This document shows positions 6,300-50,600 of a stretch of 64,000 nt of DNA, piece after piece (position 1 is the stretch's first letter; each line of letters opens with the position of its first letter). The stretch is from Diphasiastrum complanatum (Eukaryota; Streptophyta; Lycopodiopsida; Lycopodiales; Lycopodiaceae), in contig CM055107.1 of the NCBI GenBank assembly GCA_029204225.1, forward strand, positions 47,166,476 to 47,230,475. The letters are read 5' to 3'. The translations under genes were made by a program, and so were the position numbers. The notes below the pieces were generated by a model. The model did not search any database. It worked only from the letters and a program-made list of their open reading frames with translations, and had not been told where the DNA came from.

Positions 6300-9200
6300 G
6301 CACGTTTGCTAGAGAGAAGTCTTGGTAGAAATAAGACTAATAATCCATAGTAAACTTACATCACAAGGATATAGAGAGAGAATACCACAAATTTCACATA
6401 GTCCCTCTTGACAAGTCAAGACCAAACCTTTTGAGTCCTTTTGTCTTATAGCATAACATATTTACACAAAGATGTATAAGAACTTATTGTAGAGAGTACC
6501 ATAAAGTGAAGCAAGTTTTAGGAAACTCATCTGTTACTTGCTACTATCCACCAAACAAAACCGCACGAGTTAGTATATTGTGGAAGACATGTGTCATAGC
6601 TGAGCATAAGTTGTTATCCATGTCCGAAACAACATTCACTACCAGCTTACCTGAAACGTATCATAATTAGTCCAATTTTCCCTACCATTATCTTACCATG
6701 TCATAGGTCTTGCCCTAGTATTATTGTATCAGGGCATCCGCCATACTGATCAGTTTTAGGCAAATAATTCTATTATTACACTACCGCACAACATCCTAGA
6801 AGCAACCATAATCAATCACTAAAATGGAAAAGGTCTTGTTTGGACATAGAAATCGATATCAGGGCACATCCGTGCCATACTTTACCAATTGGTACCATGA
6901 ACAAACTTGGTAGCCAATGGAATCTATGAAGCACTACTTGGACAAATCCATGCCATTCAAGTTCACCTAACCCAAGACCGATTCAAACTTAACAAATGCA
7001 CAACTCCGCAGACCATTATGCTATTATAGCCCAGTAACATATCGCTTTGTAACAAGTAGGGTGTGATCGTCCTCGTCGGCATCAGGGTAAATCCATATCA
7101 TCTTGACCCATAAGACTGTCAAACCGTCTTTTACGAGCATGGAACAGTCTGAGCTTACAACCCACCTCACTTGTAATCAAGTGGAGAAACAACTTACTTC
7201 TATGTTCTACAAGTATATGATTCTTAATGTCCAAACGTTGCATATAGAACAATTTCTATAAATTTATCCAATGTAGCCTAATTTTCATTATGCTAGTGAA
7301 AATGGTTGTTTATAAAGTTAGTAACGCATTCTATAAGTAAAGAGTCTTACTAGGTTAAAAAATATGAAGAATGTCTAAGAACAGATTGGGAGTTACTGGG
7401 TTATTAGTAACAGACCAGCTCTTCAATTTATAAACATAGTAGCATACGTATCAAGGGGTATGTGTAGTACGATTTTTGATTACGTGCTAAAGATTCTTCC
7501 TGAGAGGTAGTCATGATCGTCTTTCTAATGTGATAGACAACAAACCCTTCCAGTATTGGTACCGAAGAGCAACATATCATGTTAATGTCATAATAAACCT
7601 TATAGTAATGGTTTTGAAAGGAAACCTGACAAACCTTAACACCATAGTCCAAACTCACATGTATTTGTCCTAAACCTCGTCTTTTGATTGTAGTGTCCTA
7701 AAATGATTTTAACAACAACACACAAACAGATTCTATTTTGTCTAACCATTGATAAAACAAGCTTTATTGGACAACATGCCAAGTAATATGTTTGTGAACA
7801 ATGATTCCAATACCCAAACTATCAAGGTTGGGCCAAAAATAATGAAAAAGGTCATTCATGTTCAACACAACATTATTACGCCACTGTAGCTTTTACCAAA
7901 CTATTGCCATATCCCCTTGCCCTCCACAAGCAAGACCAAAGATGTACACAAAGCTAAGGAATCCTTCACTTAATGGTAAATTGCGAATGAGTAACATCGG
8001 AAGACGATCCATTTTTCTTGGGGAGTCTTGAATTTACAGTTATGAATAAGCGTGTTTTGTTAAATTTGAAACTTTACGTTGTTAACCATAAGTATTGTTT
8101 TGTGTGACATTCTAAGTAAGCTATGTGTTACCTAGTAGCTGAATTCAAACTATGGCCTTCAAAATGGTTCAAAACTTAGATACAAGTTCTACAGATGTTT
8201 TTGAAAATTATTCACGCATAAAGATATTATTATGTCTAATTTATAGAATCATATCTAACATGTGCATAAGCTTCATATGGCATCGAAGAACTTAAGTATC
8301 ATTTCAAAAATGCTTGATATAACTATCAAATATAACATTTAACAATTTGAAACTCTTTAATTGACTCCCAAAATTGTCTTTGACGCCCGTTATGCCATCA
8401 AACTACAATTATGAGCCGTCATTGTCAATTGAGTTTCCCTAATAGCCACATGCTGCAACCTCCATTCTCCATGCTTTTCCATTTGTGAAGGACGACTTTC
8501 CAAAATCTCATAAGAGCTTCATGGAGGGGCCATATCAGTATTAAGGGTGGGAAAAGTTGGTGGATTATTGAGAGCACCTATTAAGCAACCATCACAACCA
8601 AGGAAAGTGAAAAAGGAAGCGGAGGTATAGGCACATGGAGTGGTTAACAATGGGGCCACTTTCATCCAAGGGTTCGGGGAGAGTTGGTGCCAGGTGGGTG
8701 CTCGAGAGCTCGAGAGCAGCTTTGAAGCAGACGCTACTCATGGATGATCGATCATGACGGCACATGGCAGTCATAGTTGCCTATTTGCGAAGCAGAAAAA
8801 GATGGGAATCGGGATGTTGTGGGGCGAAAAAGAGGAAGGGTCTGGTGGGCTCCACGGGCCTGACATTGCTTTCAGCATCAGGATGGCGTGGAGCCCACCA
8901 TTGCTTTCAGCTTCAGGATGATACAGCTACATCCCACTTTACACAACTTTGCAGACTGTTATTCCTGAATCCTGATTGATTTTATTTACTATTATGAATT
9001 TTGAATTAGTGTCCCAGTCTCATCGTCATCCAGCTTTTGGCACCGGTGGGCACGATACTACGATTTCACAACAACAGGCTGTATAATTACAACCACTTTT
9101 AAGCTTGTGTAATAATACTTTTGAATTTCATAATCTGGTACCTTAATATTTTATAAACAACTGTCTCAAAATGTATGTGCAGGAAAATTGAAATTCATGT

Positions 9201-16900: not shown

Positions 16901-19900
16901 CAAGCAAATTTGAGGAAGCAGTAGGAGCTGTGTCAGATTGGCAAGAAGAAACCATGCCCTCAAAGATGCCTAGATAGGATCAAAGCATAGATGCCCGCAC
17001 TATTTAAAAAAAAAATAAGACAATGCATGTTTCGAATTTTTTTTTATTTTTAGCCACGTTCTGAAACGGAACGCGCCTTCCGTACGCTTTCCATTTCAGG
17101 ACGGGCATCTATGTATAAAGACTGCGAGTATGTGGTGTACAACACAGACAGAAGAGCATAAGGCCATCTCTCCTGCGTGTGTGGGCAAGAAATAGAATCT
17201 CCATCCAGAATGTAGTGTGTTAATGCTCCTTATTGTATGCACATTGCAGGTCCCTTGTTCTCACCCAAACCCTGCTATATTAACAATCTATGTTTGTGAC
17301 CAGGCTGTCAAGAACCAGTGGCCATGTTCACCAGTACACAAGTCCACTACAAGATCAATTTCCTTCTAGACACCGTATTGCACTATGGTAGGTCTAGTGC
17401 TTCCTATGTCCCTATTAATCTCTTTACCAACTCCCTGTCAAAAGTGAAATTTCCATTCTTAATCTGTTGTGCTATCGGTGCAAGCCATTCTACTACATTA
17501 ATATGTGAGATGCAATTGTACTCTTTTGATGCAATTACAAAGTAAAGACTCATAATCATTATGCCTGATGGAATGTAATCATTATGCCTGATTCATAATA
17601 GGTATGTCTTGTAATCCCAATAGAAAAGACTCATAGTCAGTTCAGCTTGTAAATTAGCATTGTTTTTATTCACATGCAAGAGAATGTTTTACAACTAGCA
17701 TGATGTGCCAAAGTAGGACGAAATTCATCACCTTTTGTCATCCTTCAACTTCCTTCACTCTTGAAAAATAAGATGATACGGAGCAGCATGTGGACAGGCC
17801 ACACTTCTACTCTATTATACATTGATTATGGTTGCTAAAAAATTGCAGATTCCTAATGAAAGAAGTGCGAGTTCTGCAACCATTTCTAGGACAGATGATC
17901 CATATGGTGCTGTGCAAACCACACCAGCTGAAGATGGAATACACCTGCGAAAACCAGGAGTTGTTGCTAGACTAATGGGTCTAGACTATATTCCCTGTTC
18001 TCAATCTAAAAAGGAAAACACAGATGCTCATCAACAAGCCATCCTGGCTGCGCGAACAGGCAAAAGGCAATACTTCAAGTCAAAGGAAGCAAATTTGACC
18101 GCAAAGACTTTTGACAATAGCTCTAAAAAAGTGAATGTGAATCAGCACCTTCAACAAAGACAATTAGCACGTTCTCTTGACATAAATCTGCAGAAGATCA
18201 GCAAAAATTCTTTTCTAAATGCATCAAAGCCTGTGTGCCAGCAGGAAGACATTCAAAAAATCTATATCTCAAGACAAGTTTCATCTCATCATTCACATAG
18301 CAATTCTCCACCTTCAAAATCATCCGGTAAACTCAGATCAACACAAAAGAATACTGGAAGCAAGAGAGCAACACTGCTTCTGGAGGCTGCAGTTAAGACC
18401 CTTGAACCAAATTTTCAATCTGGCGACCATGATCGCCCTGTTCTGGTGCAGGCTTTAGCATCCAGGACTGCTCATCCAAAAATCAGTGAAAAAAGGATCA
18501 ACCTAGAAAGGAGAGATGATGGGCGAAATTGTCACAATGACAACATAGGAGTTCCAAGAAAAGGTTCTGCTATCAACTCAACCGCTAATTTGCCATCTCA
18601 TACAAAGTTCTGTTGCAGCCAGGAAGAGAGAGGGGCTTGGCAGATGAGTCCACTTGCATCCCACCAAGAGAGTCAGAAACTGAGAACTTCTATAATTCAA
18701 GCACGCCACTATTGCTCAGACCAACATCAATCAAACAAAGTGGGTGTTGAAGGTGTTATGAAAAAAGGGCATCATGGACAATTGCACGTTGGCACTAACG
18801 AGCACATATCAGAATCAAAGCCAAAGATTGTGAAAGAAATGTTTGCAACAAGCCAACAACCAGACAGAAAAATTGTTCACAAGGAGTTCGAAGAGGCGAC
18901 TGTCAAAACCAATGACAGATTGCATAAGACTGGGTGTAGGAAGACACCAATGCTTACAGCTAAAGATCCCACCAATTCCACCAAGAGCAAAAAGTTAAAC
19001 ACAAAGCAATATCCACTTAAACATGAAGACGATGAACTATCAGTTCGACTCATCAACCCATGTGCTGAAACCAATGTGGAAAACGAGCCCAAAATGACTG
19101 AAGTTTCTCATACTGAGAAGATGTCGACCTCTTCAAGAAATAGCAGGCCAGGTAGGGATCGGAGGTCTGGGCAAATACACAAGGAAATCCTGGCTTGGAA
19201 CGAAGAAGAGGCTGATATAAAAGGAGCAAGCCAGGCATCACAGGAGAAAACTCTTCCGACAAGAAGGGCACTGGCTGATTTTTCTCTGCAAAGGAATCAA
19301 AACGATTCAAATACTAAGCACAAGAGCCTGTCAAACACATCTGCAGGAAGATGTTTCCAAAAGTCGCGTGACTCAAAATCATCTTCTAGAGGGACAGAGG
19401 ACAGAGGGAAAGAGGAACTAGGAGTCACTCTGGCATCATGTACGGAAAAAAGCAAGTCCCAGACATACAGCCAACTAACTGCAGTCAATCAAGAATTGGT
19501 TCTAGAAATAGATGGTCCACATTTATCAACTGAGTCAGAAAAGTGCCCGGAGGAGTATGCAGTAAATGAAACAACAAAGCGAGACCGTCCTTTAGATGCA
19601 AGTTATGGAGGAAATTACGCCGATGATTTGGACAATGTTGATTTACTGCCCTTCGACCGAAAGTATCTGGTGAGTAGACATTGTGAAGCCTTATTCCTCG
19701 AGAAGACTAAAGAAAAATCACCTCAAAAAAATCAGATATCAAAAACTGAAATCGACATACGCACACAAGATAAGCTGTGCGCAGACCATCCAGGTGACGA
19801 GTTACAGAATGAAAAGGACGCCAGAGAGTGTTCTTTAAAGGATCATGATCTGGAAGAAATTTTGAAAGGCATGTTATCTATGACCATTGCAAGCGATTCT

Positions 19901-21348
19901 TCGAACGAAAAAGACTACAAAAAGGACATCTGTTTCTTGTCACAGGACTGTTCAGAAGCATGCAACGACAAGCTTGAAGGACAATCTCAGGTCAGAAAGA
20001 AAGATATCTGATCGTCACTGTGATATACCTTTCCTTTCAAATTATGATGTATAGGCTTACTACACTTCTTTGCTCACTACCGTGGGTTGATTAATACCTG
20101 AATTGTTCTATATTATTCATAAACTTATTAGGTTCACACACACTCACAAGCTTGCTGTCAATTGCAGTCTCCCTTACAAGACGAACCTCGAGCTACAAGC
20201 GTAACTTTGGAAATTAGATCGCCTCCAGCACCTGAAAGTACAGTTAGCACCCCAAGGTGTGCCGAGAGCGTTTCCAAGCCTGATAACATAGAGGACTGTG
20301 GCCAGCCTAGTCCAGTATCCGTACTTGAATTACCATTTGAAGATGAGGACGTATGCTCATGGAATGGAGAAGGTTGTTGTTTGGCACTTTTAAGCTTCTG
20401 TTGGCACAAAAATTAAGATAGTATTCATGTATATGTTATATAACAGCCAGATAAACTTAACGAAAGCATAATCTGTCTTCCCTCACTAATATAGAATCAT
20501 GTGAAATTGAAAACAGGGGTAGTACACATTCTTTGCGTGAAATTTTATCGTCTAAGAAAGGTGGCCTTAAATTGCACTGACATACATCGTTGCATCTGTG
20601 TTCAGCTTGTACAGAAAAACTCATGGATGCACTCCATTCGCGTCCAGCATTAGCACCAAAGGGGAATCCGATCTCTCAAAGCACATGTAATATCAATCTT
20701 TTGGGGAATCCGAAAAGCCGCAACAGGGAAATGATTCAAGAAGCCATTCTGTATAACCTAAAGCAGCATTTTCTTGATTTGCTTAGATATGAATCGACGG
20801 ATAGCAATGACATGGATTGCATAGAGTATAAAGTAGATGACACCAAAGCTAAAAATCTGCTCTTGATTCAAGACTGCGATATTACTTCTTGTTCCAATAA
20901 GATCAGGAGACTGCAATGCCAACAGCTGCATCGATTTGCGACGACTGAAAACACATGCGCCAGCAAACAAGGATATTCGTCTAGAAGATCCGAGGCTTCA
21001 AATTTCCATGATAAGCTTTTGTCCGACTGTGCCAAGGAAGCATTGAGGCCTAAGCTGTCAAACTTTAGATATGACGACTTATGGTGCCAACCTTCGTTCG
21101 TCGAACTCACAGCCATTGGAAGACAAATTGTTCACGAGGCTTGCAAACAGATACTCGTATGGAGTCAGCTCAATCTAAGCACAATAAATGATTTGGTCGA
21201 CAGGGATTTGAGCCTTCCTGCTGAAAATTGGACCGATTCTCACAAAGTAGACGAAATAGGAGCCAAAATCGAAAGCGCCATATTCGATGCAATATTGGAA
21301 GAACTCGTATATGACTTGTCAACCTCAGACCAAACTACGGCTAGTTGA
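10921..21348 (+). CDS. TRM-like (TON1-recruiting-motif family) DUF4378 protein
   Basis: Model: join 10921-11071, 12369-12433, 17849-19990, 20168-20372, 20615-21348, giving 3297 nt and 1098 aa. All junctions are GT-AG and phases agree (1, 0, 0, 1). Residues 26-36 contain LLLKLFNWNG, matching the LFDWN block at TRM N-termini. Residues 108-118 are PGVVARLMGLD, the diagnostic VARLMGL motif. Residues 832-840 are QPSPVSVLE, another TRM hallmark. The last about 210 residues resemble DUF4378, ending in IGAKIESAIFDAILEELVYDL. The middle (about 150-780) is hydrophilic, Ser/Lys-rich and probably disordered. In seed plants, TRM/LONGIFOLIA proteins bind TON1-PP2A or microtubules and steer division-plane position and organ elongation; that role here is inferred. 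Exons 1 and 2 are short and easily missed. The gene looks intact. Confidence 0.85.
12081..12225. repeat. 84-bp imperfect tandem duplication in TRM intron 1
   Basis: ttctgtagacacattaaa... at 12081 is repeated as ttctgcaggcacataaaa... at 12165, with the following ctttcatg(c/g) and gaaag(c/t)tct blocks shared. It lies about 150 bp before the exon 2 acceptor. The remainder of intron 1 (11072-12368) has ORFs but no family signature and is treated as non-coding. Confidence 0.6.
12434..13260. other. Start of TRM intron 2, nothing recognised
   Basis: No coding or repeat signature recognised in this first part of the 5.4 kb intron. Confidence 0.4.
13273..13374. repeat. Pair of related hairpins in TRM intron 2
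   Basis: cactcc (13273-13278) pairs with ggagtg (13293-13298). About 70 bp on, gtgcactcc (13343-13351) pairs perfectly with ggagtgcac (13366-13374) across a 14-nt loop. The two share the cactccctg...ggagtgca arrangement, so one may be a copy of the other. Confidence 0.55.
13860..14720. repeat. Interspersed G-rich repeat, copy A (in TRM intron 2)
   Basis: This copy shares colinear blocks with 56278-56935. They are gaaacgc-type ends, a ttgcttatggctgaaattttttag block, a cttattttca(g/a)tagctatttgg block, a dense G/C patch (14190-14300 here) and a distal gatcgtaac(g/a)aac...gctagaggttagttttg block. The outer ends contain inverted ...gcgtttctga / tcagaaacgcg elements, so it may be a non-autonomous DNA transposon. 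No protein is encoded; ORFs across the G-rich patch are artefacts. Confidence 0.6.
15431..15868. repeat. 215-bp tandem duplication in TRM intron 2
   Basis: Two near-identical copies starting cctccgttttatcttag at 15431 and 15646. Copy 2 has a small insertion (tcttctatca) and a few substitutions. High identity suggests a fairly recent duplication. A short partial third piece (tttgacgtcatt) follows. Confidence 0.85.
16449..17113 (+). mobile_element. TIR DNA element with internal ORF (TRM intron 2)
   Basis: The ends are catagatgcccgt (16449) and its inverse acgggcatctatg (17101-17113). Beyond the tips, both ends contain related, partly palindromic blocks with gttccgt, gtacg and cagaacgt, so the inverted repeats extend imperfectly for about 70 bp. 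A second direct catagatgcccg lies inside at 16986. Between 16570 and 16977 runs an open frame of 135 codons with a DCHQC pair near its start and a Ser/Glu-rich C-terminus. I could not see an obvious target-site duplication. The structure resembles a non-autonomous element carrying a captured gene fragment (Pack-type), which is inference. Confidence 0.55.
16570..16977 (+). CDS. ORF inside the TIR element, unknown
   Basis: A 135-codon ORF, soluble, with no membrane segment. KGKDCHQCLSGQ near residue 15 is reminiscent of Cys-x-x-Cys zinc-binding starts in plant chromatin proteins (for example CHQC of R1/4CXXC or KDM3-type domains), but the remaining Cys residues of such domains are not seen. It is most likely a captured and drifted host-gene fragment, or a chance ORF in a GC-richer insert. 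Confidence 0.3.
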   Translation: MENNENRPKLKGKDCHQCLSGQGSSHLPHVQLQRICSNGRFVLQEVKSPPQSAFQPIRSQGRLVLQLIHQTGPILPVTDPNADRPDLFPKGHMGSGEPTEPLNSNSKQEFSSKFEEAVGAVSDWQEETMPSKMPR

Positions 21349-31900: not shown

Positions 31901-32103
31901 AAAAATAGCAAAAAACATCTATGTCTTCCACTCACTGCATTGGCAATTCGCATGTTCACAAATAGCTACTTTTGCTGCTTTGGGCTTATCACCATCATCT
32001 ATGTAATACCTGGGTGGGTTGCTTTGAGCAACCAAAACATTAGTGATCGCAACAATCAGCAAAAAAGTGGTTGATCTTGAGATTACTAGCGCAGCTCGTG
32101 GCT

Positions 32104-34024
32104 ATGGCAGCGATTGCTGCTGCAATACGGATGCTGTGGATGCAGGCGCTGTTGGTATGGTTCTTGCAGCTTCGGATCTGCTGTGCAGCTCCCTCTTTCA
32201 ATCCGGCATGCCCTTCGGCTCTCATAAGCCTCGGAGACTCGTCCGCTGACACAGGCAATGCAGAGATCGTCTTTCCATTGGTCATGCCTGCACAGTATCC
32301 ACCCTATGGGATGACTTACTTTCATCGTCCAGCTAATAGGTTCTCTGATGGGCGCCTCGTTATTGATTTTATGGGTATTGTTTTTATCGATTTGCATGAG
32401 TTGATTAGGCTTCACAAATATTGGTTTTGTTGTTGGTAATTTATATCATGTAGATGACTCGAAATTGTTAAAGACAGTGTTAGTTTTGTGATGATGAACG
32501 TAGCTCAAGCGTTGAACCTTCCTTTGCTGGAGCCTGATCTTGGACAAAGCAGTACCGCAACACTTTCCAGGGGCATCAATTTCGCTGTCGCTGGGGCTGT
32601 GGCAATTGGGGGTTCTGAGTCGCAACTTTCATTCTCAGCCCAAATTGAACGATTTCATACACTCGTAAACTCTGAAGCCAACCGAGGCAATCGTGTATTT
32701 TCTGGTAGTTTCTATGATCCCAGTAACACTTCCAAGGTTTGAGCGTATGAGAAATTTGTTCAGAATCTTTTGAATACTGTGTCCTTGGTTGGTTACTGAT
32801 AGCGGATGAACCTGTATATGGCTTGCGGCCTTTTCTGTGATGTTTTTCTATATGATGAAGATGGGTGCATCGTGATTGGAGATACTAGGATGATTTTCTA
32901 TTTACCAATTGTAACCTCTGTAATTTTTGTATTCGAATAATAATGATCAAAATAGATAAGTTGTTCATTAGCCATGTCCTATTTTCCAAGTTTATAGAGT
33001 TAGAACTGAGTTATTTTCTATTTCAGGTGCTCTGTATGTCATCTCCATTGGCACGAACGATTTCTACAATTCACTTGCCGTTGAGAAGATGAGTGAAGAA
33101 GATGTGCGTGGTTTAATAGCACCCCAAGTTATTGATGCAATTGCAAATGCAGTGAGGGTAAGCAGCTTACCTTTTTCATTAAGTATATGCTGAATTTTAC
33201 AAGTGTTGATCTCAAAAGTAAAATGGAGGTCTAGAAAGGTTTCTTTATAAAATTTGCTTTTGGATTTGCAAAAATTTGAGTCATATTCCAAATGGATGCT
33301 CCTTCAACAAGCTCTCATGGTTTTTATATTGCCTTTTATGATCTTATGATGGTACAGAACATATACAATCAAGGTGGCAGGAATTTTGTCGTTGTTAATG
33401 TATATGCCCAAGGATGTACTCCTGCAACATTAACACTAGTGGATCCTTTGAATGTTGATGCGCACGACCAATTGGGGTGTTTGCCTTCATACAACCAAGT
33501 GATTGAAGACTATAACAAACAACTTAAACAAACAGTTTATAATCTGATTGCGGAGTTGGAAGGTGTAAACATTGCCTACGCTGATGTCTATCAAGCACTC
33601 ATGAATATGTTGTCAAATCCACAACAATATGGTAAGCCATCTATACGTAATTGTTTGTACATTCCTTAATGGTTGTATTCAAGAACATGTACAATGTTTG
33701 GTAGATTGATAAACCACTTGTTCTACATGCAAATGTCTCTTCAAATCATTCAACATTTTCCAACATTCAATCATACGTCATTTTTCAGGATTCCAAGATG
33801 CTACAAAGTTGGACGCTTGTTGTGGTAGTGGAGGAACTCACAACTATGATGCCACAAAAATATGTGGTGAGATTGCAAATATATGTAGCAATCCTTCAAG
33901 CTACATATCTTGGGATGGGATTCATCTTACAGAGGCTGCATATAGAGTGATTGCCAGAGGAGTTATCACTGGGCAATATTTGGATCCACCAGTTAACTCG
34001 AGCTCAACTTGTCATCGACCATGA
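32104..34024 (+). CDS. GDSL esterase/lipase
   Basis: Model: join 32104-32374, 32504-32704, 33027-33157, 33358-33631, 33789-34024, giving 1113 nt and 370 aa, with GT-AG junctions and agreeing phases (1, 1, 0, 1). Length fits plant GDSL enzymes (350-400 aa), which are secreted hydrolases of lipid or ester substrates. Residues 1-28 form a hydrophobic signal peptide ending near CCA. Block I is LGDSSADTGN (catalytic Ser46; the usual Leu of GDSL is Ser). Block II is INFAVAGA (Gly121), block III is SIGTNDF (Asn168), and block V is WDGIHLT (Asp335, His338). All catalytic and oxyanion residues are kept. The exon 2 donor at 32704 was chosen over 32736 because only it restores the FSGALYVISIG reading. 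Substrate is unknown. Five exons is the usual plant structure. Confidence 0.9.
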
Positions 34025-35400
34025 GCTATCTTTGAATGGCTACAAATTTACCACTGGGCAACCCCTATCTTCTAGCATTTTAAAAGTAGTTAGTAAGTAA
34101 ATTGATACAACCATTGGCATTTTGATCTATGGAGTCTATGTCAAGCATATTGCTCACAAATAATAAATTTTTTATAAGTGGTCACCTCGAAACATGTATT
34201 TGACACATGTTCCGAAGTGTATATTCAGATACACATGGATACATCAACATTATTATCTCAAATACTTGATATTTTGTACGTGCTCCTCAAATTTCAAAAC
34301 GGGAAATTCAATGGGAGTCATGCGGAGTTTAACTAAAGTTTGCATCGTTTTATAGCTTAACTCTCATATCGGAACTTCATTAGTGTGGATGTGTTTTATC
34401 ATTATTTTCTATTTGAACACTTTTTTATGAATTTTGTCTCATATTTTTGTTCTATCGTTTTGCAATATTGCATGTCAAATTATGAAATTGGCACTTTTGT
34501 ATATGTAGATTCTGCTGAAATTAATGAGAATATTTTTTGGTAGATTTTCGGTATAGTATATATGAGACATGATTTTCCTACCTTGAATCTTGGTACCAAG
34601 ATATTTTCATATTAACACTAGCAACGTATTTGTCCAAATTTGTTGGCACAAATCAGAAGCATACATAAATATTTGTGGACTTCTTGGACCCAACAAGGGA
34701 CTCTTGATTAGTACAAATATTCAACTTGATTGGTGTGAACTTCAAGCGAAGGTTTTTTACTTTGATTTTGACCCACAAAGTGAAGGTTTTTTACTTTGAT
34801 TTTGACCCACAGTGTAAACTTGGCTCGCATGCAAATCTATTCATAAATTCTACTCCATTCACATGAACTTCTGAGGGATTAATATGGGGAACCTCCCAAA
34901 AAAAACTAATTCTCAAAGGAAAATCTTTAGTATGCAAGATCGATTGGCAAAAGCCAATTACATATACATGATCATGGTGTTTATGCTTCTTGAGGAAGTA
35001 AATGACAACCTTTGTTCTATTCAAATAGCAAGTCACAATTCTATACTATAAAAACAATGGAAAACTAATCACATAGGCATTGGTTATGCATATATGCAAG
35101 GGTAAAAAAACTCGGAGTGGCGTGCAAGAAGAATGGAGTGGAGATTAGGTTCGTGCAATAGTTTTGGCAAGAATTGTGAATTTAACATTAAAGGCTTTGG
35201 AATATGGTAATGCATGCATGCAACTATTATTGTTGGGTTTTTTTTATCTAATAGAGAAGATTTTGGTTACGAGAGCGTATGGGAGTGAATCTAGATTGAT
35301 AGTGGGCCAAATGTATGAGCGAGGGGGTTGATCTTAAGGGTATTTGATGATGGAGAATGAGTTGTAGAGGGTTGAGTGGGTGGGAGAGAAAGAAAGAGAA
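34025..35400. other. GDSL 3' flank, no gene; small tandem repeat
   Basis: No gene recognised. A 34-bp direct tandem duplication (gaaggttttttactttgatt-type) lies at about 34747-34812. The remainder is AT-rich and unassigned. Confidence 0.4.
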
Positions 35401-35410
35401 TGGTATGGGA

Positions 35411-35893
<483 letters not shown>

Positions 35894-35899
35894 CCAGAG

Positions 35900-36950
35900 C
35901 ACCTACATACAAAAGCAAGCAAGCTAGGCATCATTGAGTATAATAGACTTGGTAGGAGGGCACACTCCTTTTCATAGAGAATTGGAAAACTTGCGAAAGG
36001 GCGTGAGATGTGGAGAAATGAAGCGGTGAGGAAGAACTGTGAAGGGTAGAGCGAGAGAGAAGGGCGCACTTTCCTAGGTGTTCAAGAGTTCCCAAACCAT
36101 GTGGCAAGGTAGGTATGTTATCTTAGTTGGCTTAACATTTAACGTTAGACAAGCTAGATTTTCTTTGTCAATTGCCCCAAGTGCAATCTTTCTATGGGAG
36201 AGGTTTGGTATATATGTCTAGATTCTTATTTTGCATAATAGTCATTAATTGATAGACCTTGTTTTCTAGTGGTTACTCATCTCCAATCATGGATGTTCAA
36301 TCCACCAACCTTTGGATTTCCTACTCTGTTTTGGTCAAAAAACATCATGGCTGAAAGGGAGACTAGAGACTTTGTTTCTTGGACTATTCAAGATACCAAC
36401 ACTACACACACACATTCATTGTAAGATGCTATGACAAAATCCTCTGAGATATCATGCCTTTAACTAAACTTTTTTATAGCCTCCAACGTTTGCCTCAAAG
36501 GTTGGTGGTCCTTTGTGTTCTCATTGGCATGGCAAGAAGTAAAGACATAATCGCATTACTTCATGTATGATATGTTTCACAATTTTTACCTTTTAAGAAT
36601 AGCCTAATTATTCTTTCACATATGACGCATGTCAAGTTTGCCTTGTATATACTTCCACTTGCACTATACATTATACTCATTTGATTTTCCTTATGGATTA
36701 TTAATTAACATGAGCCACAAGAGCATGTGCATGCATGATTTTTGCATAACTTGGGCATGATTTATGCAGAAAACTTGTACACATGAAATGGTATGCAAGG
36801 GAAAGGTACATGTGCCTTATGTACTTCAATTTGACCAGTGATTATTGGGGGGACTGGAAAGAACATTGCATGCAAAGATGCAGTGAGAGAAAGATCAAAA
36901 AGGTCAGATCGATGGATTCTGTGGAATGAGAGTTTTCCCTCGATGCCTGA
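35900..36950. other. No gene recognised
   Basis: Unassigned sequence. A G-rich ttggggggactgg string near 36845 could be a retroelement polypurine tract, but its context does not confirm this. Confidence 0.3.
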
Positions 36951-42440: not shown

Positions 42441-42662
42441 GAATCATGATCACTCCAAAGTATGGTTCGAACACCTATTTTGCTTGTGTGTTGATTTTGT
42501 GGAATAGTTTATGAAACTAGATTGATGAGTGCTTGTGCTAAATATTATTCATGATTGTGATAGCTTCATTAACAACAACAAACAAGCATTCATCATCCAT
42601 ATAAGGATCACACACATTAAAAAATGGAGGGCCTTTGCAAGCAAAAGATAGGAAGGAGGAGA

Positions 42663-42822
<160 letters not shown>

Positions 42823-42829
42823 TCTATTC

Positions 42830-43262
42830 TCTTCAAATGAAAAAGGTGCTAAAAAATGGTATCACATACCCTTATATAGACATTCGTAGGGTTAGGATTT
42901 TTGGTTCACCCAAAACCATGTGCCATAACAACTTGACTTTAAAAAGTTTTTAAAACCAAATTGCATTTTTGGCCCATCTGAAAGTGAATCTATCTCTAAT
43001 TCTCGTGCAATATAGTACCTGATTCGTTATATTTGATTTTAAACTGGTGCTGAAAGCTAATATCATTAATATTCCACACGTGTGGAGCTGGATTATACTA
43101 ATTGATCAAGGCTTTGATTGTCTCTACTTGTTTCCTATCAAGCTACTAAACTAGATCTTGTTTTCTGATGACTAGTTTATAATAGATTGTTTAACAAGCA
43201 TACAATCACCTTGTGGATCATTCAAAGATCCATTTTTGGTCCTTAGTACTGTACTTTTCACA
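42830..43262 (+). repeat. Probable copia 5' LTR fragment
   Basis: Ends ...tttcaca next to a primer-binding site. Contains one CACACGTGTG palindrome (43075-43084), as does the copia LTR at 62.5-63.3 kb. The LTR start was not located. Confidence 0.4.
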
Positions 43263-43281: not shown

Positions 43282-43828
43282 AAGGCCATGGATCTCTCTT
43301 TGAATCTAATCCAGTTTTAGCAGGTTTTGGTGCAAAAAGCTAGTATTGGAAGGGCGACCTGGTATCCAGGTTTTGGTGAGGGAATTTGATCCCAAACTTT
43401 TTCAGGATCAAAATCCATACTGTTTACACATGTGGGCATCTCTGAACCAGCATTTAATAACCCATATTCATTGGATCATAGAAAATTCATCTGGTGTCAG
43501 TTTGATGTAATTTTTGGTGCAAATCCTAGAATAAGCTACCAAGATCACTTGGCATTGATTAGTTTTGAATTTGTTTCATGAAAACTAATTAATCTAGGCT
43601 GATCTCAGACCTTCTTAAAGTGGAAACCAAGTCTTGAAAGTACATCAAAGTGAATGAGAGAGAAAGAGTCAGTTTTTGTCCAAGAATAGCCAAGATTGGC
43701 AAGATTTGCTTGAGAGTAGTTTTCATCTCATCTTATCTTCATTCCAGCTTTGTGAGGGAGTGATAGAACTGTGATTACAAATCCATTTGTTGGATTAGAA
43801 GTCTTATTTATTGTTTCTTTTTTATGTT

Positions 43829-43950
43829 TTTTGTCTCCTATGCTAAGTATAACTTTTTCTTTATTTAATTATTTCTTTTTGATACTTTAACTCTTCTATT
43901 CTATTTTATATTTTATGTCTCCCATGCTAAGCATAGCTTTTTCTTTTTCA
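43829..43950. repeat. 85-bp direct repeat before the methyltransferase exon
   Basis: A tttatg...gtctcc(t/c)atgctaag(t/c)ata(a/g)ctttttctt block occurs near 43825-43865 and again near 43905-43948. The second copy ends as a pyrimidine tract plus CAG that forms the acceptor of the next exon. Confidence 0.55.
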
Positions 43951-43951
43951 G

Positions 43952-45120
43952 TCTCCCGAAGATAAGAAAAACAAAGTCCTTCTAGAGCAATTCAAGAGAC
44001 ATATTTTGAAGGCAAAAGCAAAAAAAAAAGGACAGAGAGAGATTAGCACGGGGTGAGACCATTGCGGAGGAGGATCCATTAGAGACCTACCTTCCCAAAA
44101 GTGTCGATGATCAACCATGCTTTTACTCAGTTGAGGAGGGCGATTGTAGAGAAATTTTTAGAAAAAGGCCTTATACACTCTGCATTGCCGATATACCATA
44201 TGGATTTCAGATGAAGGAATCATTAAATGACGATTCTCTCCTCAAATTCACTGAAATCCATAGTTTTATGCAGGGTTTTCTCGAAGTCACAACTTCTCCA
44301 ATTTGGAGAGTTGTTATTTTTCATTCTTCTTGGCAGTCAGTTTCAATACATAAAGCTCTACTAACTTTCTGTAATACGGGAATAGAAAATGTTGTGTGGT
44401 AAGTTTTTAAGTTCTTGAATTATTAATTCGTATTTTGATTCATAATCATATTTTAATTTTTTTATTTATTTTAGTTGTAATGTTCCATGTCAGATACAAG
44501 CCCAATGTTAGGAACTCGGGAGGAGCACGACTTTGTAATGAAATAGAATACATAGCCATCGGTTATTATTCTTTGGATGACAAACGTTCGATGCTTCATT
44601 ACAATACTTCCGGACTGACAAGTTTTGGAAACTTGTTTCAATATTCAGCCGTGACGAAGAAACTAAAGAATCCAATGATGGTTCTGTGGCTTGTCCCTAC
44701 GAAAAACCACAACAATTAATATTTTTTCTCACCCAACTGATTGGATTTTGGATTTATTTAGTGGTAGCGACACTACGAACGCATGTGCTATTCAGAAAGG
44801 CAGACATGTTGCTGCAGTAGATTTAGATTCTAATTTTGATTTTGTAAAATTGAGAATGAAATTTCTTTCAATTTTGTCAGATGAACTATCTGAGGTGGAG
44901 TTTAGATAGCGAGGATTTAGTAATTCCCTTGTCCAAGGAACCTCAGCCTCCTACTAGTGAAAAAGTAGGCGATACAGGAGAATTTGCTGATGTCTTGGTT
45001 CAAGATTATAATGTGGTTACGGTAGTCGAGGAAACTGTAGATAATGTGCCACTTCAAACTACAGTAGCTACTCAAGAAAAAGAAAAAGATGTAAATGATC
45101 TCGTTGATTTTTGGGAATAA
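43952..45120 (+). pseudogene. DNA N4/N6-methyltransferase (PF01555-type), decayed, with intron
   Basis: Exon 43952-44398 starts after a ctttttcag acceptor. After a slip near 44050 it reads AEEDPLETYLPKSVDD, CIADIPYGFQM (motif IV, consensus [D/N/S]PP[Y/F]; first Pro is Ile here), then FLEVTTSPIWRVVIFHSSWQ. The donor is gtaagt. The second exon (about 44494) reads YKPNVRNSGGARLCNEIEYI (the KPN...NxxEYI block of this class), NP then CPYEKP (the HPTQKP equivalent), and WILDLFSGSDTTNACA with GRHVAAVDLD (motif I, FSGSGTT with G to D). Motif IV before motif I is the beta-class order. Such enzymes use S-adenosylmethionine to methylate cytosine N4 or adenine N6 in DNA. Lesions are a TGA across the splice junction and slips near 44050, 44676 and 44730, so no active enzyme is expected. 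An acidic tail ends at 45120. Confidence 0.7.
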
Positions 45121-45800
45121 AAATTTCTCTTTTGTTTCAAAAAATAATTGCGTTTATATTTTTTGATGTATTGTGTTTTGAAATCTTTTTTATTAATTTA
45201 ATATTTTTAAATTTATTTTTTAATTATTTAAAATTAAAAATTTGAAATATTTTAAAAATTTAACATTGATAATCATTATAAAAAATTCAAATTGTAACAA
45301 TTTGTCAAGTTTATAATATTTTGATTTTGGATGTGTTTTTATGATATTTTTTGTGAGAAAAATATTGTTAAGAATTTAAAAAAATGAAAAGATGTTTTTC
45401 AGAGTGATTTAAATATTTTCACAAATCATTTTATCTCGATTGTTGTAAAGTAATTTCATTTGCGTTTATTTAATGTTTGAATATTCAATGAACTTATATA
45501 GGTCTAAGTAAAGATTTAAAACTTTAAAAAATATTGATTAATATCATAATTTAAAAAATATTTTTTTCAATACAAGAATTGTAATTTTAAAAACTTTTAA
45601 AATTCCAAAAAAAAAATTATAACTTTTGTTTTAAATATGCAAAAAATATTTTTAGTTATTTTAGTGGTTGTGTATCTAATGATTTTATTTTGAATAGTAT
45701 TATTATTTCATATGAGCTAATTTAAAGTTATTTATGAAAATCTATTTACCAAATTTTTGTAGCTTGAATTATTTTCTTGCAAAATACAATATTTTATTAT
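45121..45800. other. Very AT-rich spacer
   Basis: About 680 bp of A/T-rich sequence with no coding potential, separating the methyltransferase remnant from the next spliced remnant. Confidence 0.6.
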
Positions 45801-45804
45801 CTAG

Positions 45805-46553
45805 TTTTGAAAGAGATGAATGGATTGCACCAGATGTTACAGTTTCAGAATCATTTCGTTGCAAGATATATAATGATGTAAAAAATTCATTAAAAATGAG
45901 CACGAGATAAAAAATAGTCAGATTGAGTTGGTTTATTTCCTTGAATATATTTGTGGATTTCTTTTCAAGTGTCAATGTACACAACCCCAACGATGTTTGT
46001 ATGCAAAAATTTATCAGACAGTTTATTATCTAAACTTATGGATGAAGGCTGGGACAAAAGATCAGATGGAGAAATAGAATGTAGAATTAAAATGTCTTCC
46101 ATGTGCTTCCGTTATCAAATTGAAAAAATAAATGCTGAGCTTATGCTTCCATTATCAAAGATGGAAAAAAAATAAAGGTAAATGGGTGCCCCTCGATCAA
46201 GACTTGGAAGCCAGCGGACATTCAAAACGAAAAAATATTGAAACTATATACAATGATGCCGTTTTGACATGTGTTGAGGTGGAAGAAGATTGGAGTTTAA
46301 ACTACATCCGGCGGGAACTATTGCTCCTACAAGATGATGTACTTTCAGACTTCAGATTCATTTTCAATGGTAAACTCGTAAGTAACTGTAAAAACTCAAT
46401 CTTTTATGAATAGTTTCAATCAAAACTTTCTATTACAAACTCTGTACTAATTCTAACTAACTTTGTAGTTTTATGCAGGTACGTAAAAGACATGAGCTCG
46501 AGATCAAATGTAGAGATATTGGCGAAACAATCCAACTTATGGAAGAACATTGA
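45805..46553 (+). pseudogene. Spliced coding remnant, unknown protein
   Basis: The exon 45805-46377 begins after an attatctag acceptor. With one frame change it reads FERDEWIAPDVTVSESFRCK and KNSQIELVYFLEYICGF. After two in-frame stops it continues GKWVPLDQDLEASGHSKRKN, WSLNYIRRELLLLQDDVLSD and FRFIFNGKL, then a gtaagt donor. The second exon (46479-46553, after ttatgcag, phase 0) adds VRKRHELEIKCRDIGETIQL and a TGA. The C-terminal FRFIFNGK...DIGETIQL pattern is loosely like a ubiquitin-like fold, which is a weak guess. I do not recognise the family. It lies on the same strand as the methyltransferase and has the same AT-rich character. Confidence 0.5.
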
Positions 46554-46755
46554 GATTCACTATCAGCAAATACATGCCAATCATCATGTTTCTTTTATCA
46601 TTATATAAAAATTGCATTCTAGTATTAGACTATGGACACAAGCTGATTGTAAGAATCTATTGTGATATCAATAAAAAAAACCCATAAACGGGTTGTTTAC
46701 AAGTAAAATGATTGTATCTTTTTTTTTTGATGTCTCTCTATTTACAAATAGATCT

Positions 46756-49022
46756 CTATTCAATAAGTTTTTCTATATTTTCTATATCAGTATCAGGAAT
46801 TGATAAGGCAACAGCTCCTTCTATAATCTCGCCCTCCTTTGTTTCGGGAAGGGCCTCAATGCCTTTTAAGGCAAGAGGAATATCTGCTACAAAAATGCCT
46901 TTCTATGTATTAGAAAGGACTTTTATTCCTTTTTGATCATATAAAATAAGATCTGCATCCTGAGCAACCTGAAAGGTTGTTAAGGCAGGAGTAGCTTTCT
47001 TTTGAGGGCCCTCGATTACAGCTACAATTCTTACACCGTACTGGACATAGGTTCTGATCAACTCTTGCCGAAATCTATATACATCACCAGGAGTATACGA
47101 CTCAAGAGTGAACTGTCATCACAAAACACGAGAATCATCAAATTACAAACAATGATAGTAATAAAATATGAATAAGAATGAAATGAACTTCAAATGAATA
47201 AAATATTACCTCTTCAATATCTACATCCGTTTGTAAATTATACCGTTCAAAAAATAGCTTCGTATTGTACAGGACGAACCATGCACAACTAAAAGCGTCT
47301 TGTTGTTGTACACACTGCATATATAGAACAAAAATTAGTAATATAATGATAAAAAATTTATTTATGCTATGACGATACATTTGAATTAAAAAAGAAATAC
47401 ATGCGTATCAGAGATGAATTTAATATACCTTGAGAGATTTAATGGTTATATCTCCAATTGAAGTTGCCGTTGTCGATATTTTTTGAACAACATCATGAAG
47501 TAGAGAATCAAATTCTCGTTGTATATTTGTAGCCGACTTTAATTTTACACAAAGAAAATTTGATACTCTCTCCTTATTTATCTTTAAAAAAAGAATGTTC
47601 AAGCTCCAATGCCAACTGCAAGAACCAAAATACAAATATCGATAAATTCATATTTATGAAAAAATTTCGTTTTTATTAAAGCAATGAAGCATGCAACAAT
47701 CCATATTAAAACAACAAAAACAAAAGAGCAATCCTTACTTATTTTCATATGGAATCAAATAGAATTTTGCCATAGGACTGCACTCGATAAAATAGACAAC
47801 CTTCTCAAAATTGGCTTCTTTCACCTAACCGCTCCCATGAAAAATGGACTAACTACAAAAATTGTACCATGGGAATCGAGACTAATACTATTCTGCAAAA
47901 AAGAAACTTCGGCCTCTACTATTGCATCTGAAATTTTTGAGGTCTTATCTTTTAGCTCGGCACAAAATTTGGAACCTAATCTAAAGCTTATATGTGTACC
48001 TAGAAGAAAAAAATCAAAAAAGTTGCCGAGAAAATCAATTTCATTAGCTAGGTAGGTCTCGTATTGATTATAATGGTCAGAATAAAAACAAACCCGGGCT
48101 GGATCGTATGGAATTCTCACAAAAAGATTATGTATAGGAGCTAAAACAGAAGGGGAAACAATATTTACAGATTTCTCTGTTATTTTGTCTAGCTCCTCTT
48201 GAGTAATCAACACTTTTGGTAATGAAACCTGTTGAGGAGCTAGATGATATATCGGTTTCGAACGCACTCATAGTATTCACAATAGTATATAATAAGCAAA
48301 TCAACAGAAAGTTGAAATGAATAAATAACAAATTTAGTGATTATGAATGAATTAAAAAGTTCAAGCAATATTCAATACCAACTAAGCTATAATTTACTTG
48401 AATGCACAGATTTGTCTTTTTCTATGACCTCCTCTGGATGATAGATCACATATATCCTTGTTTACCAGTCTCTTTCTCTTATTGCTTCGGACCTTTCTGT
48501 TGAGCACATCCATATCTTTAACAAGAGACAAATATGAGATACGCATGATTGAAATGCAATTTTTATCTCATCATTACTAGTTGTATAATGATGCAAAGAA
48601 GATTTCAACCTTCGAATCTCCTCCTTGAGCATCTCATTTTCATCCAAACAAGTTTTCATCTTTGTAGATTTTTCTTCGCACTCCTTTGATATTTTCCTTG
48701 ATTCCACTTCCAAATAATGTATTCTTTGCATTGAATGTGCATTCCCATAGAGCATCAAATTCTCACGGTAACTCAAAAGGCCATTTTTACCACGACACAT
48801 ATAAATTATTAACTGACTCACCGAACGAAAATATGGATGTTGCAATGAACATGGATCAATAGGATACAATGTTCCTGATGACCATAAATCTACATGTTCT
48901 AGCTTTTCTTCCCTATATTGGACCATATCAGAAGCTGAAAATTTGGGTTGCTTTGAATTTCTCGTCCTGAGCGGAGCATATTCTGGTGACAGATCCACAT
49001 GAAGATGATAAAGCTTTGTCAC
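46756..49022 (-). pseudogene. Multi-exon gene of unknown function, few lesions
   Basis: Exons on minus: 48462-49022 (ATG at 49022; an ordinary N-terminus, then a probable coiled coil with KECEEKSTKMKTCLDENEML); 47739 to about 48280; 47429-47615; 47210-47314; 46756-47112. The last three junctions are textbook (gtaagg / cttgcag, gtatat / tatgcag, gtaata / gatgacag) and keep the frame. Recognisable but unassigned blocks are LITQEELDKITEKSVNIVSP, FVRIPYDPARVCFYSDHYNQ, YETYLANEIDFLGNFFDFF, QELIRTYVQYGVRIVAVIEG and VAQDADLILYDQKGIKVL. Damage is limited to a 1-nt slip near 47826 and a TAG at 46903-46905. The first junction is not resolved. It is convergent with the + strand remnant. No transposon or host family was recognised. 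Confidence 0.55.
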
Positions 49023-49029
49023 CAGTACA

Positions 49030-50600
49030 GTATTATAGTAACAAACAACACAATGACAATAAGAAAGCTGGAGATGGCGCTAACGACTCTGCTGGAGATA
49101 GATATGGCGTAGACTTTTTTAAGAAATGTCACTCCTAATTCAAATTTTTGAGTGTTCCCAACTATGGGGAGAGAATATTTCAGCATTTTGAAAAATTATA
49201 TTTTAACTGTGGTTAAACACCAGTGAAGTTTGATGTGACTAAACTAAGGTGCATTCATTTACATGGAAAGTAGTGCGGGCAGATGCGTAAAGAAGTTAGA
49301 AAATGATATTATAATTACTTTATAGTTATTTTTCTCTCTCCTACATGGCATTTCTTATAGGGCCCTCTTTGGGCCCATATTTTCTCTAATGAATCATTCA
49401 TCATCTCCTGGAAAGTGGCATGGCACATTCCTTAGCCAAATGGCGTGCTTTGTTGCAATTGAAACATAATCCTTGCTTGAAGCGTCTCTTACAGATGTCT
49501 TAGGTTTTTTTCTTAATTTTCTTTCTAGTCTTGGGTTTTCAATAAACCATGGCTGCTATTTGTTCAAAATTTCCTTTTGTATCAGAAATGTATATTGATT
49601 TATAAAAAAAAATCCCACTATCAGCGATATTGCAACTGTCCAATATTAGTGTGAATAACATCTAACACACCTGCTAAAGATCCACTCGGCTCTCATTCAT
49701 TTATGTTGGATGGATATAAATTTGCAAGAGAAAAATGATCAGATTGGCAAGTTTACTATCAGATATTTATGAATGACAAAAATCAAAGTAAAAACATATC
49801 AATACTCACAGTTGTTTTTTTTGTGATCCTGACGGTTGAATCCTTGCACATTTATCTCTGAATGCATATATACATGTTAGACTAGAATTTCAAAAATAGA
49901 TTTTCCTCCTGATTATGTTCTGAAATCCAAAATTCTGGCCTTCCAATAAGATCGAAATGATAGTTTTGACTTTTTCCTTTTTCGAAATGCTCCTTTTAAT
50001 GATGGATGCATCAAAACCCAAGAGTTTTTTGAATATTTTCTTGGCACTCATAATCCATTATCATCTGTCTCGTTGAATAGAAGCACAGAGTCGATTGAGG
50101 AGCATGGCTTCCTTGATGGCGCCATTCGTAATTTGCATGCAAAAATCTAAAACAATGAACTATGAATATGAAAATTTGCATAAACAAAAAACCATGAATT
50201 TGAGAAAAAGTGTTGGCGAAAATTTGAAACACTGATTTATTTGGCGCCACAAATTAACTCTGGTTAACCCTGTTAATTATGGTTTGACAATGCATACACA
50301 TTAATGGTACATCGATTTTCTCATCTCAACCATCTGTCATATTCATTTTCAATATTTTTGGGTCTCTTCGGGCAGTGATGAGCTGGAAGGGCAGGCCTCA
50401 TCAACCAATAGCATTTTCACATGCTGCCCGACGAAACAACAATATATTAAAAAAAAAAATTATTTTATTATATTTGAGAAATTCTACGTTACTTAGAACC
50501 CTGAAGCTAAGGTTTCAATTGGTCCACATGGCAACAAAATAAGAAAAATAAATAAAAAAACATCTTTTTCAAAGGCCCTCGTCGGGCTCTAAGTTTCTCT
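49030..50600. other. No gene recognised; possible small MITE
   Basis: No coding signature. A short non-autonomous DNA element may lie at about 50474-50605. The left gagaaattctacgttactta and the right ggctctaagtttctctaa are imperfect inverses, and a related right end (gggccc...ttttctctaatg) occurs at about 49361-49393. Confidence 0.3.

Follow-up and report, generated by a model that had tools for sequence, protein, structure and literature searches.

The window, the whole stretch of 64,000 nucleotides from Diphasiastrum complanatum analysed here, contains on its plus strand the right-end remnant of a transposon (43803..45799), corresponding to positions 6615-8678 of the 8794 in a complete copy found elsewhere in the genome. 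Over its main aligned piece, the remnant shows 83-89% identity with every one of 20 copies fetched from the same genome. It has lost the left gene as well as the terminal ~116 bp, which include the right inverted repeat. A 65-bp fragment of the left (DUF7869) half is located at 43009..43073, with no strand assigned (element positions 1351-1415; 89% identity, E 7e-18, in a blastn search of the window with the complete copy), and ~730 bp separates it from the rest. The remnant carries a methyltransferase gene consisting of an exon with motif IV (43952..44398, plus strand; DIPY placed from the sequence at 44190-44201), in which the frame shifts between 43952 and ~44020, an intron with the borders gtaagt...cag (44399..44493, plus strand), common to the sister copies in a 21-row alignment, and a last exon (44494..45120, plus strand) with YKPN...NEIEYI, CPYEKP and motif I, LDLFSGSDTT, the gene ending at 45120. 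The motif blocks reported by the first-pass annotation are indeed present, in the order and at the places it had given: ADIPYGF at 44187-44207, YKPN...NEIEYI shortly after 44494, CPYEKP at 44692-44709 and the motif I block LDLFSGSDTTNACA at 44748-44789. The last exon has at least three frame changes, motif I at 44757 reads FSGSD, and a TGA spans the splice joint (44398/44494), as had been noted earlier, because the acceptor reads CAG|ATAC and not the CAG|GTAC seen in 11 of the 21 aligned rows. The frame slips, the TGA and the loss of the motif I glycine are decay, and in these respects the earlier description of a pseudogene holds. The missing proline of motif IV, which it had also counted among the losses of this copy, is instead a family trait, since, within the main subfamily, 17 of the 23 copies in which the motif can be read have DIPY and none has DPPY. 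The window copy is dead and truncated, and incapable of any of the transposon or methylation roles proposed below.

The remnant is adjoined and cut off by the start of a different high-copy repeat (45801..46620, plus strand), which lies outside the transposon and is younger than the methyltransferase remnant. When the stretch 45800-46620 was tested, the 40 scored rows (2,547 candidates) comprised the window and 39 others at 94-95% identity, 38 of the 39 starting at query base 2 or 3. This repeat, taken to extend over 45801-49100 with the right limit a guess, has no Pfam match over cut-off in its open pieces on either strand and is possibly another undescribed transposon. A right end of the window copy at 46579 (TCATCATGTT) was rejected because this other repeat runs from 45801 on. 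A diverged relative was also observed at L014 7024-8724, beside another methyltransferase copy.

Far from being a lone relic, the methyltransferase of the window is the 3'-terminal part of a DNA transposon present in high copy. A genome-wide search (1.74 Gb, 5,176 contigs) with the gene of the window, in which 40 of 1,596 candidates were scored, yielded 43 rows; the window aside, their identity was 83-92%. The left end of the element was found in 40 of 40 scored candidates (of 1,508) at 93-100% identity. Paralogues elsewhere in the genome, previously considered plausible, are present: all 150 scored matches to the PF01555 profile, of 1,605 candidates, were over the cut-off, and in ~86 of them, by our count, the matched stretch is free of stops. 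As the number of candidates is not the number of copies, and duplicated stretches account for some of the rows, the scored rows are a guide only to a lower bound. Twenty copies, picked by similarity from the rows of the window-gene search and including two sets of near-identical duplicates (L009/L010 and L022/L023), were read as 10-kb stretches, and all-against-all blastn of these copies gave a common left end and a common right end. The complete copy, the only one read end to end (after the adjacent stretch was added) and one in which both genes are broken, spans 8,794 bp (~8.8 kb) between terminal inverted repeats of ~12 bp with two differences, AACACGATGACA...GGTCATCATGTT. Where the alignments end, 14 of the 20 copies have the right-end sequence GGTCATCATGTT with no more than two mismatches, and that of L020 is altered further. 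The left end, AACACGATGACATTTG, is exact in six of ten flank sets (two of these representing one duplicated locus), near-exact in three and altered in L009, and AACAC, AATAC or AACAT stands upstream of GATGACATTTG in all eight loci of the left-end search.

Exact 4-bp target duplications were identified at three independent insertions, TTTA (the C19 pair, one event), TTCC and TTTA. The TTTA duplications are weak evidence alone, as they are AT-rich and easily arise by chance. Duplications with one mismatch (AGTG/AGTA and TTCT/TTTT) were found at two others, and a 5-bp one, GGTTG, flanks the copy whose left end is altered; the other four flank sets are one duplicate and three (one on C7 and two on C22 that share their flanks) without a right end in the fetched stretch. 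Inverted repeats at fixed ends together with short target duplications identify the element as a class II, terminal-inverted-repeat transposon. It encodes two divergent genes, DUF7869 on the minus strand in the left half and the methyltransferase on the plus strand in the right half, and a Pfam scan of 19 element pieces (15 of the complete copy's 45 open pieces of at least 55 aa, and four from other copies) found no reverse transcriptase. The first-pass annotation had allowed for the cargo of a eukaryotic mobile element and had proposed looking in the same genome for copies with the same neighbours. The gene does lie inside a mobile element, and the search recovered a repeat family with common ends and DUF7869, a two-gene, high-copy transposon context that had gone unnoticed.

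PF01555 is a family of DNA methylases, N6/N4 amino-methyltransferases, and the class is mainly prokaryotic. The window piece 44679-44909 alone matches its profile (E 2e-7, 31.6 bits, cut-off 26.7), with no profile match for the exon-1 piece alone or for two short exon-2 pieces, and a sister copy reaches E 5.6e-13 (49.8 bits, cut-off 26.7). In L144, where both exons are in one frame, the match covers profile positions 3-217 of 221 (E 8.7e-15, 55.7 bits) and starts just before DIPY, so that the catalytic half belongs to PF01555 and DIPY is motif IV. The class proposed from the motifs is thus corroborated, as is the permuted order, in which the catalytic motif IV (44190) precedes the SAM-binding motif I (44757), both in the window and in the L144 alignment. 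Motif I of the FxGxG type is present as FSGSG in 14 of 25 pieces, in both subfamilies. The usual motif IV of PF01555 is DPPY, NPPY or SPPY. In the transposon family the pattern (D/N/S)PP(Y/F/W) gives way to a predominant DIPY, the remaining six of the 23 readable copies having DRPY, NIPY (two copies), DILY, DISY and YIPY. This departure from the usual motif is what might be expected if an enzyme of the PF01555 fold methylated RNA or protein and not DNA, for example as a silencing suppressor. Such a target is improbable, however, since the family consists of DNA methylases and the best structural matches are the DNA methylases RsrI, CcrM and MboIIA, which a profile built from four copies found at 4e-7 to 4e-6 among solved structures, with nothing else at 1e-3. 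The same three were best in a single-sequence structure search, which also returned antibody chains, from 5e-4 down, taken as chance matches. The motif X-I region of these bacterial enzymes aligns with that of the transposon enzyme, although identity is low and the latter differs in its non-standard motif IV, its intron and its N-terminal region. Judged from sequence, the enzyme is predicted to methylate DNA, its target probably being the N6 of adenine, with the N4 of cytosine possible. Adenine is favoured because of the Asp in DIPY, a weak argument: the available part of PMC8885841 gives DPPY for bacterial N6A enzymes and SPPY for most N4C enzymes, and the catalytic SPPY of the latter is replaced here by DIPY.

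The methyltransferase gene is laid out as an N-terminal part followed by the catalytic exon and the SAM-binding exon. In the last exon, a second subfamily (L029-L031) is 55-63% identical to the main one at the amino-acid level; it is represented in the dN/dS analysis by one open exon (L031), the motif IV of which is not within the sequence seen. Ten of 25 pieces, picked for open length, were used. In the last exon, L031 compared with nine copies of the main subfamily gives dN/dS of 0.13-0.21 (Nei-Gojobori), with dS of 1.76-2.85, near saturation, and the N-terminal part, with stop codons skipped, has a dN of 0.26-0.30 between the subfamilies, with dS undefined or 2.7-3.7. These low ratios indicate that both parts were selected in the lines giving rise to the copies, and the codon estimates show purifying selection on the methyltransferase between the subfamilies. 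Among the 36 pairs within the main subfamily, dN/dS lies between 0.29 and 1.44, and stops interrupt the matched stretch of many copies, as might be seen if the methyltransferase were a passenger, that is, a captured gene which is carried but unused. High values within a burst are however just what decay after insertion yields, and a passenger is unlikely in view of the between-subfamily ratios, near saturation as the synonymous sites are, and of the conservation extending into the N-terminal part.

In L016 the DUF7869 gene was identified at E 5.1e-41, and a piece from the complete copy matched at 3.3e-20. In the genome, 150 of 150 scored matches were over the cut-off, from 2,953 candidates (more than for PF01555), and the domain was found in 0 of 14 control genomes. 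Three conserved blocks, VIDG, LDNTxRENKNQ and GHTxDQIDQ, look like an RNase H/DDE core. As DUF7869 has neither a solved-structure match nor a paper, the word being absent from the literature searched (most subscription journals and all preprints lay outside it), the term transposase rests on the anatomy of the element, from which the protein is a candidate and most likely a DDE-type transposase. Many of the top-scoring DUF7869 matches begin at profile position 4 and not 1, perhaps representing another subfamily. The two genes could instead be host genes moved by another element, the repeat then not being autonomous, and the putative role of DUF7869, with no DDE structure match, leaves some room for this. 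It is nevertheless quite unlikely, as the copy read end to end has both genes enclosed by one pair of inverted repeats, no transposase other than DUF7869 was found among the 19 element pieces scanned, and element ends pair with each gene elsewhere. Within 12 kb, 5 of 40 left ends pair with PF01555 (7-8 kb apart, two being the duplicated C22 locus) and 6 of 40 with DUF7869, in each case against 3 summed over 20 shifted controls, while direct PF01555-DUF7869 pairs number three, one in a different orientation, against 3 summed over 20 shifts. With no more than 150 of the 1,605 or 2,953 candidates listed, pairing rates as low as these are expected. No methyltransferase was seen in the stretches of 3.2 and 2.5 kb expected to hold it at two of the top-scoring DUF7869 sites (L142, L143). 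Some DUF7869 elements may therefore lack it, and its carriage may be limited to some DUF7869 subfamilies.

The intron donor GGTAAG is intact in 14 of the 21 aligned rows (the window and 20 copies), the acceptor is CAG in 12 and TAG in three (AG in 15), and the intron occupies the identical position in the second subfamily. The gene therefore has a eukaryotic history, as had been argued from the intron of the window copy. The mainly prokaryotic class might suggest a gene acquired horizontally from bacteria or viruses, or an integrated virus. This is very unlikely, since the gene has an intron, the element has inverted repeats and target duplications, the 19 pieces scanned contain no viral gene, the prokaryotic matches are only 26-36% identical (15 of 279 and 8 of at least 5,000 among the matches listed) and one match to a viral contig is remote (29%). 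A recent bacterial transfer was rejected, as the contig scan (covering close relatives only) was empty, the phage and plasmid matches listed were remote and the intron is present. Fusions of ParB and PF01555 are known from phages, according to the available part of PMC12704722, and would also favour a viral source. In the transposon, the N-terminal stretch YHFFVLGGIH...GLTVEEAKLLAWDHN resembles ParB_N by eye. L058, cited beside the phage fusions, gave PF02195 at 5.4e-5 (23.6 bits), under the cut-off of 26.3. The N-terminal part has no supported database match; for ParB specifically, none was found in Pfam, PHROGs, NCBIfam or PDB, and hhalign against 80 phage proteins gave 0.3%, with shallow profiles (the methyltransferase itself reaching 89.6% over 63 columns). 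A ParB-like N-terminal domain is thus supported by no comparison and is kept as a lead only.

Taken as a whole, we consider the window to contain a dead copy of a class II transposon in which DUF7869 and a PF01555 methyltransferase are combined, the latter kept as a working part (probability roughly 0.7). In this scheme a complete element of ~8.8 kb, with short inverted repeats and 4-bp target duplications, would carry the two divergent genes; the DUF7869 protein would be the DDE-type transposase moving the element, and the spliced PF01555-class gene, with its own N-terminal region, would encode a DNA amino-methyltransferase. The enzyme may act on the DNA of the element itself and so control transposase binding or excision, or alternatively serve in escape from, or rewriting of, the host (5mC) silencing, and either use would explain why the methyltransferase has been retained as a working part of the transposon. 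More tentatively, and with the odds rather against it, this may be a family of land-plant transposons that writes its own 6mA or 4mC mark, a self-supplied epigenetic code in a host that silences by 5mC, used for transposition control or silencing escape and able, while active, to seed a non-native mark throughout the genome.

Methyltransferases in transposons are already known. The available part of PMC5890265 describes DIRS retrotransposons that encode a Dam-like adenine methyltransferase and, in Symbiodinium and Klebsormidium, retrotransposons bearing a DNMT (C5), which likewise are eukaryotic mobile elements with a DNA methyltransferase of their own. In those cases a retroelement has a Dam-like or C5 enzyme, whereas the present element is a DNA transposon with PF01555 in a land plant. 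The virus-borne Mariner elements are DNA transposons combining transposase and methyltransferase; by the partial description in PMC3627910, they differ by a Mariner transposase, a location in viral genomes, other methyltransferase families and an added endonuclease. Sola elements, by the partial descriptions in PMC10741241 and PMC3627910, have 4-bp target duplications, short inverted repeats and a size of 2-9 kb, all shared by the present element (8,794 bp), a likeness by description only; these same descriptions mention no methyltransferase. The N4CMT of bdelloid rotifers is also a bacterial-type, permuted amino-methyltransferase in a eukaryote. According to the accessible text of PMC8885841 it carries SPPY and a chromodomain and marks transposons, but it is a host gene, whereas the enzyme with DIPY resides on the transposon itself. 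A 2019 paper stated that land plants have no transposons that encode DNA methylases. A high-copy DNA transposon bearing a selected PF01555 gene in a land plant contradicts this statement and is a counter-example to the stated absence. No description of a PF01555 transposon in a plant was found among the titles and abstract openings listed from the literature searched (with most subscription journals, all preprints and Repbase outside it). The finding bears on the 6mA and 4mC reported in the DNA of plants, for which it offers a concrete enzyme and loci for testing.

Elsewhere in the window, a plant gene with a VARLMGL motif and DUF4378, which we take to be of the TRM/LONGIFOLIA type, is located at 17777-21345. 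A GDSL lipase gene, in pieces, lies at 33280-34021, and its first exon may be 32047-32436, which has no Pfam match. Genome-wide, 14 matches to GASA, a family of vascular plants, and 66 partial matches to Self-incomp_S1 were obtained, and a search for MIR164, with 63 of 205,912 candidates scored, gave no match, as in the controls. Together with the genes of the window, the GASA matches point to a land plant, probably a vascular one. At 35394-35911 and 42632-42853 there are long (CT)n / (GA)n arrays, one of them duplicated inside a 236-bp direct repeat.
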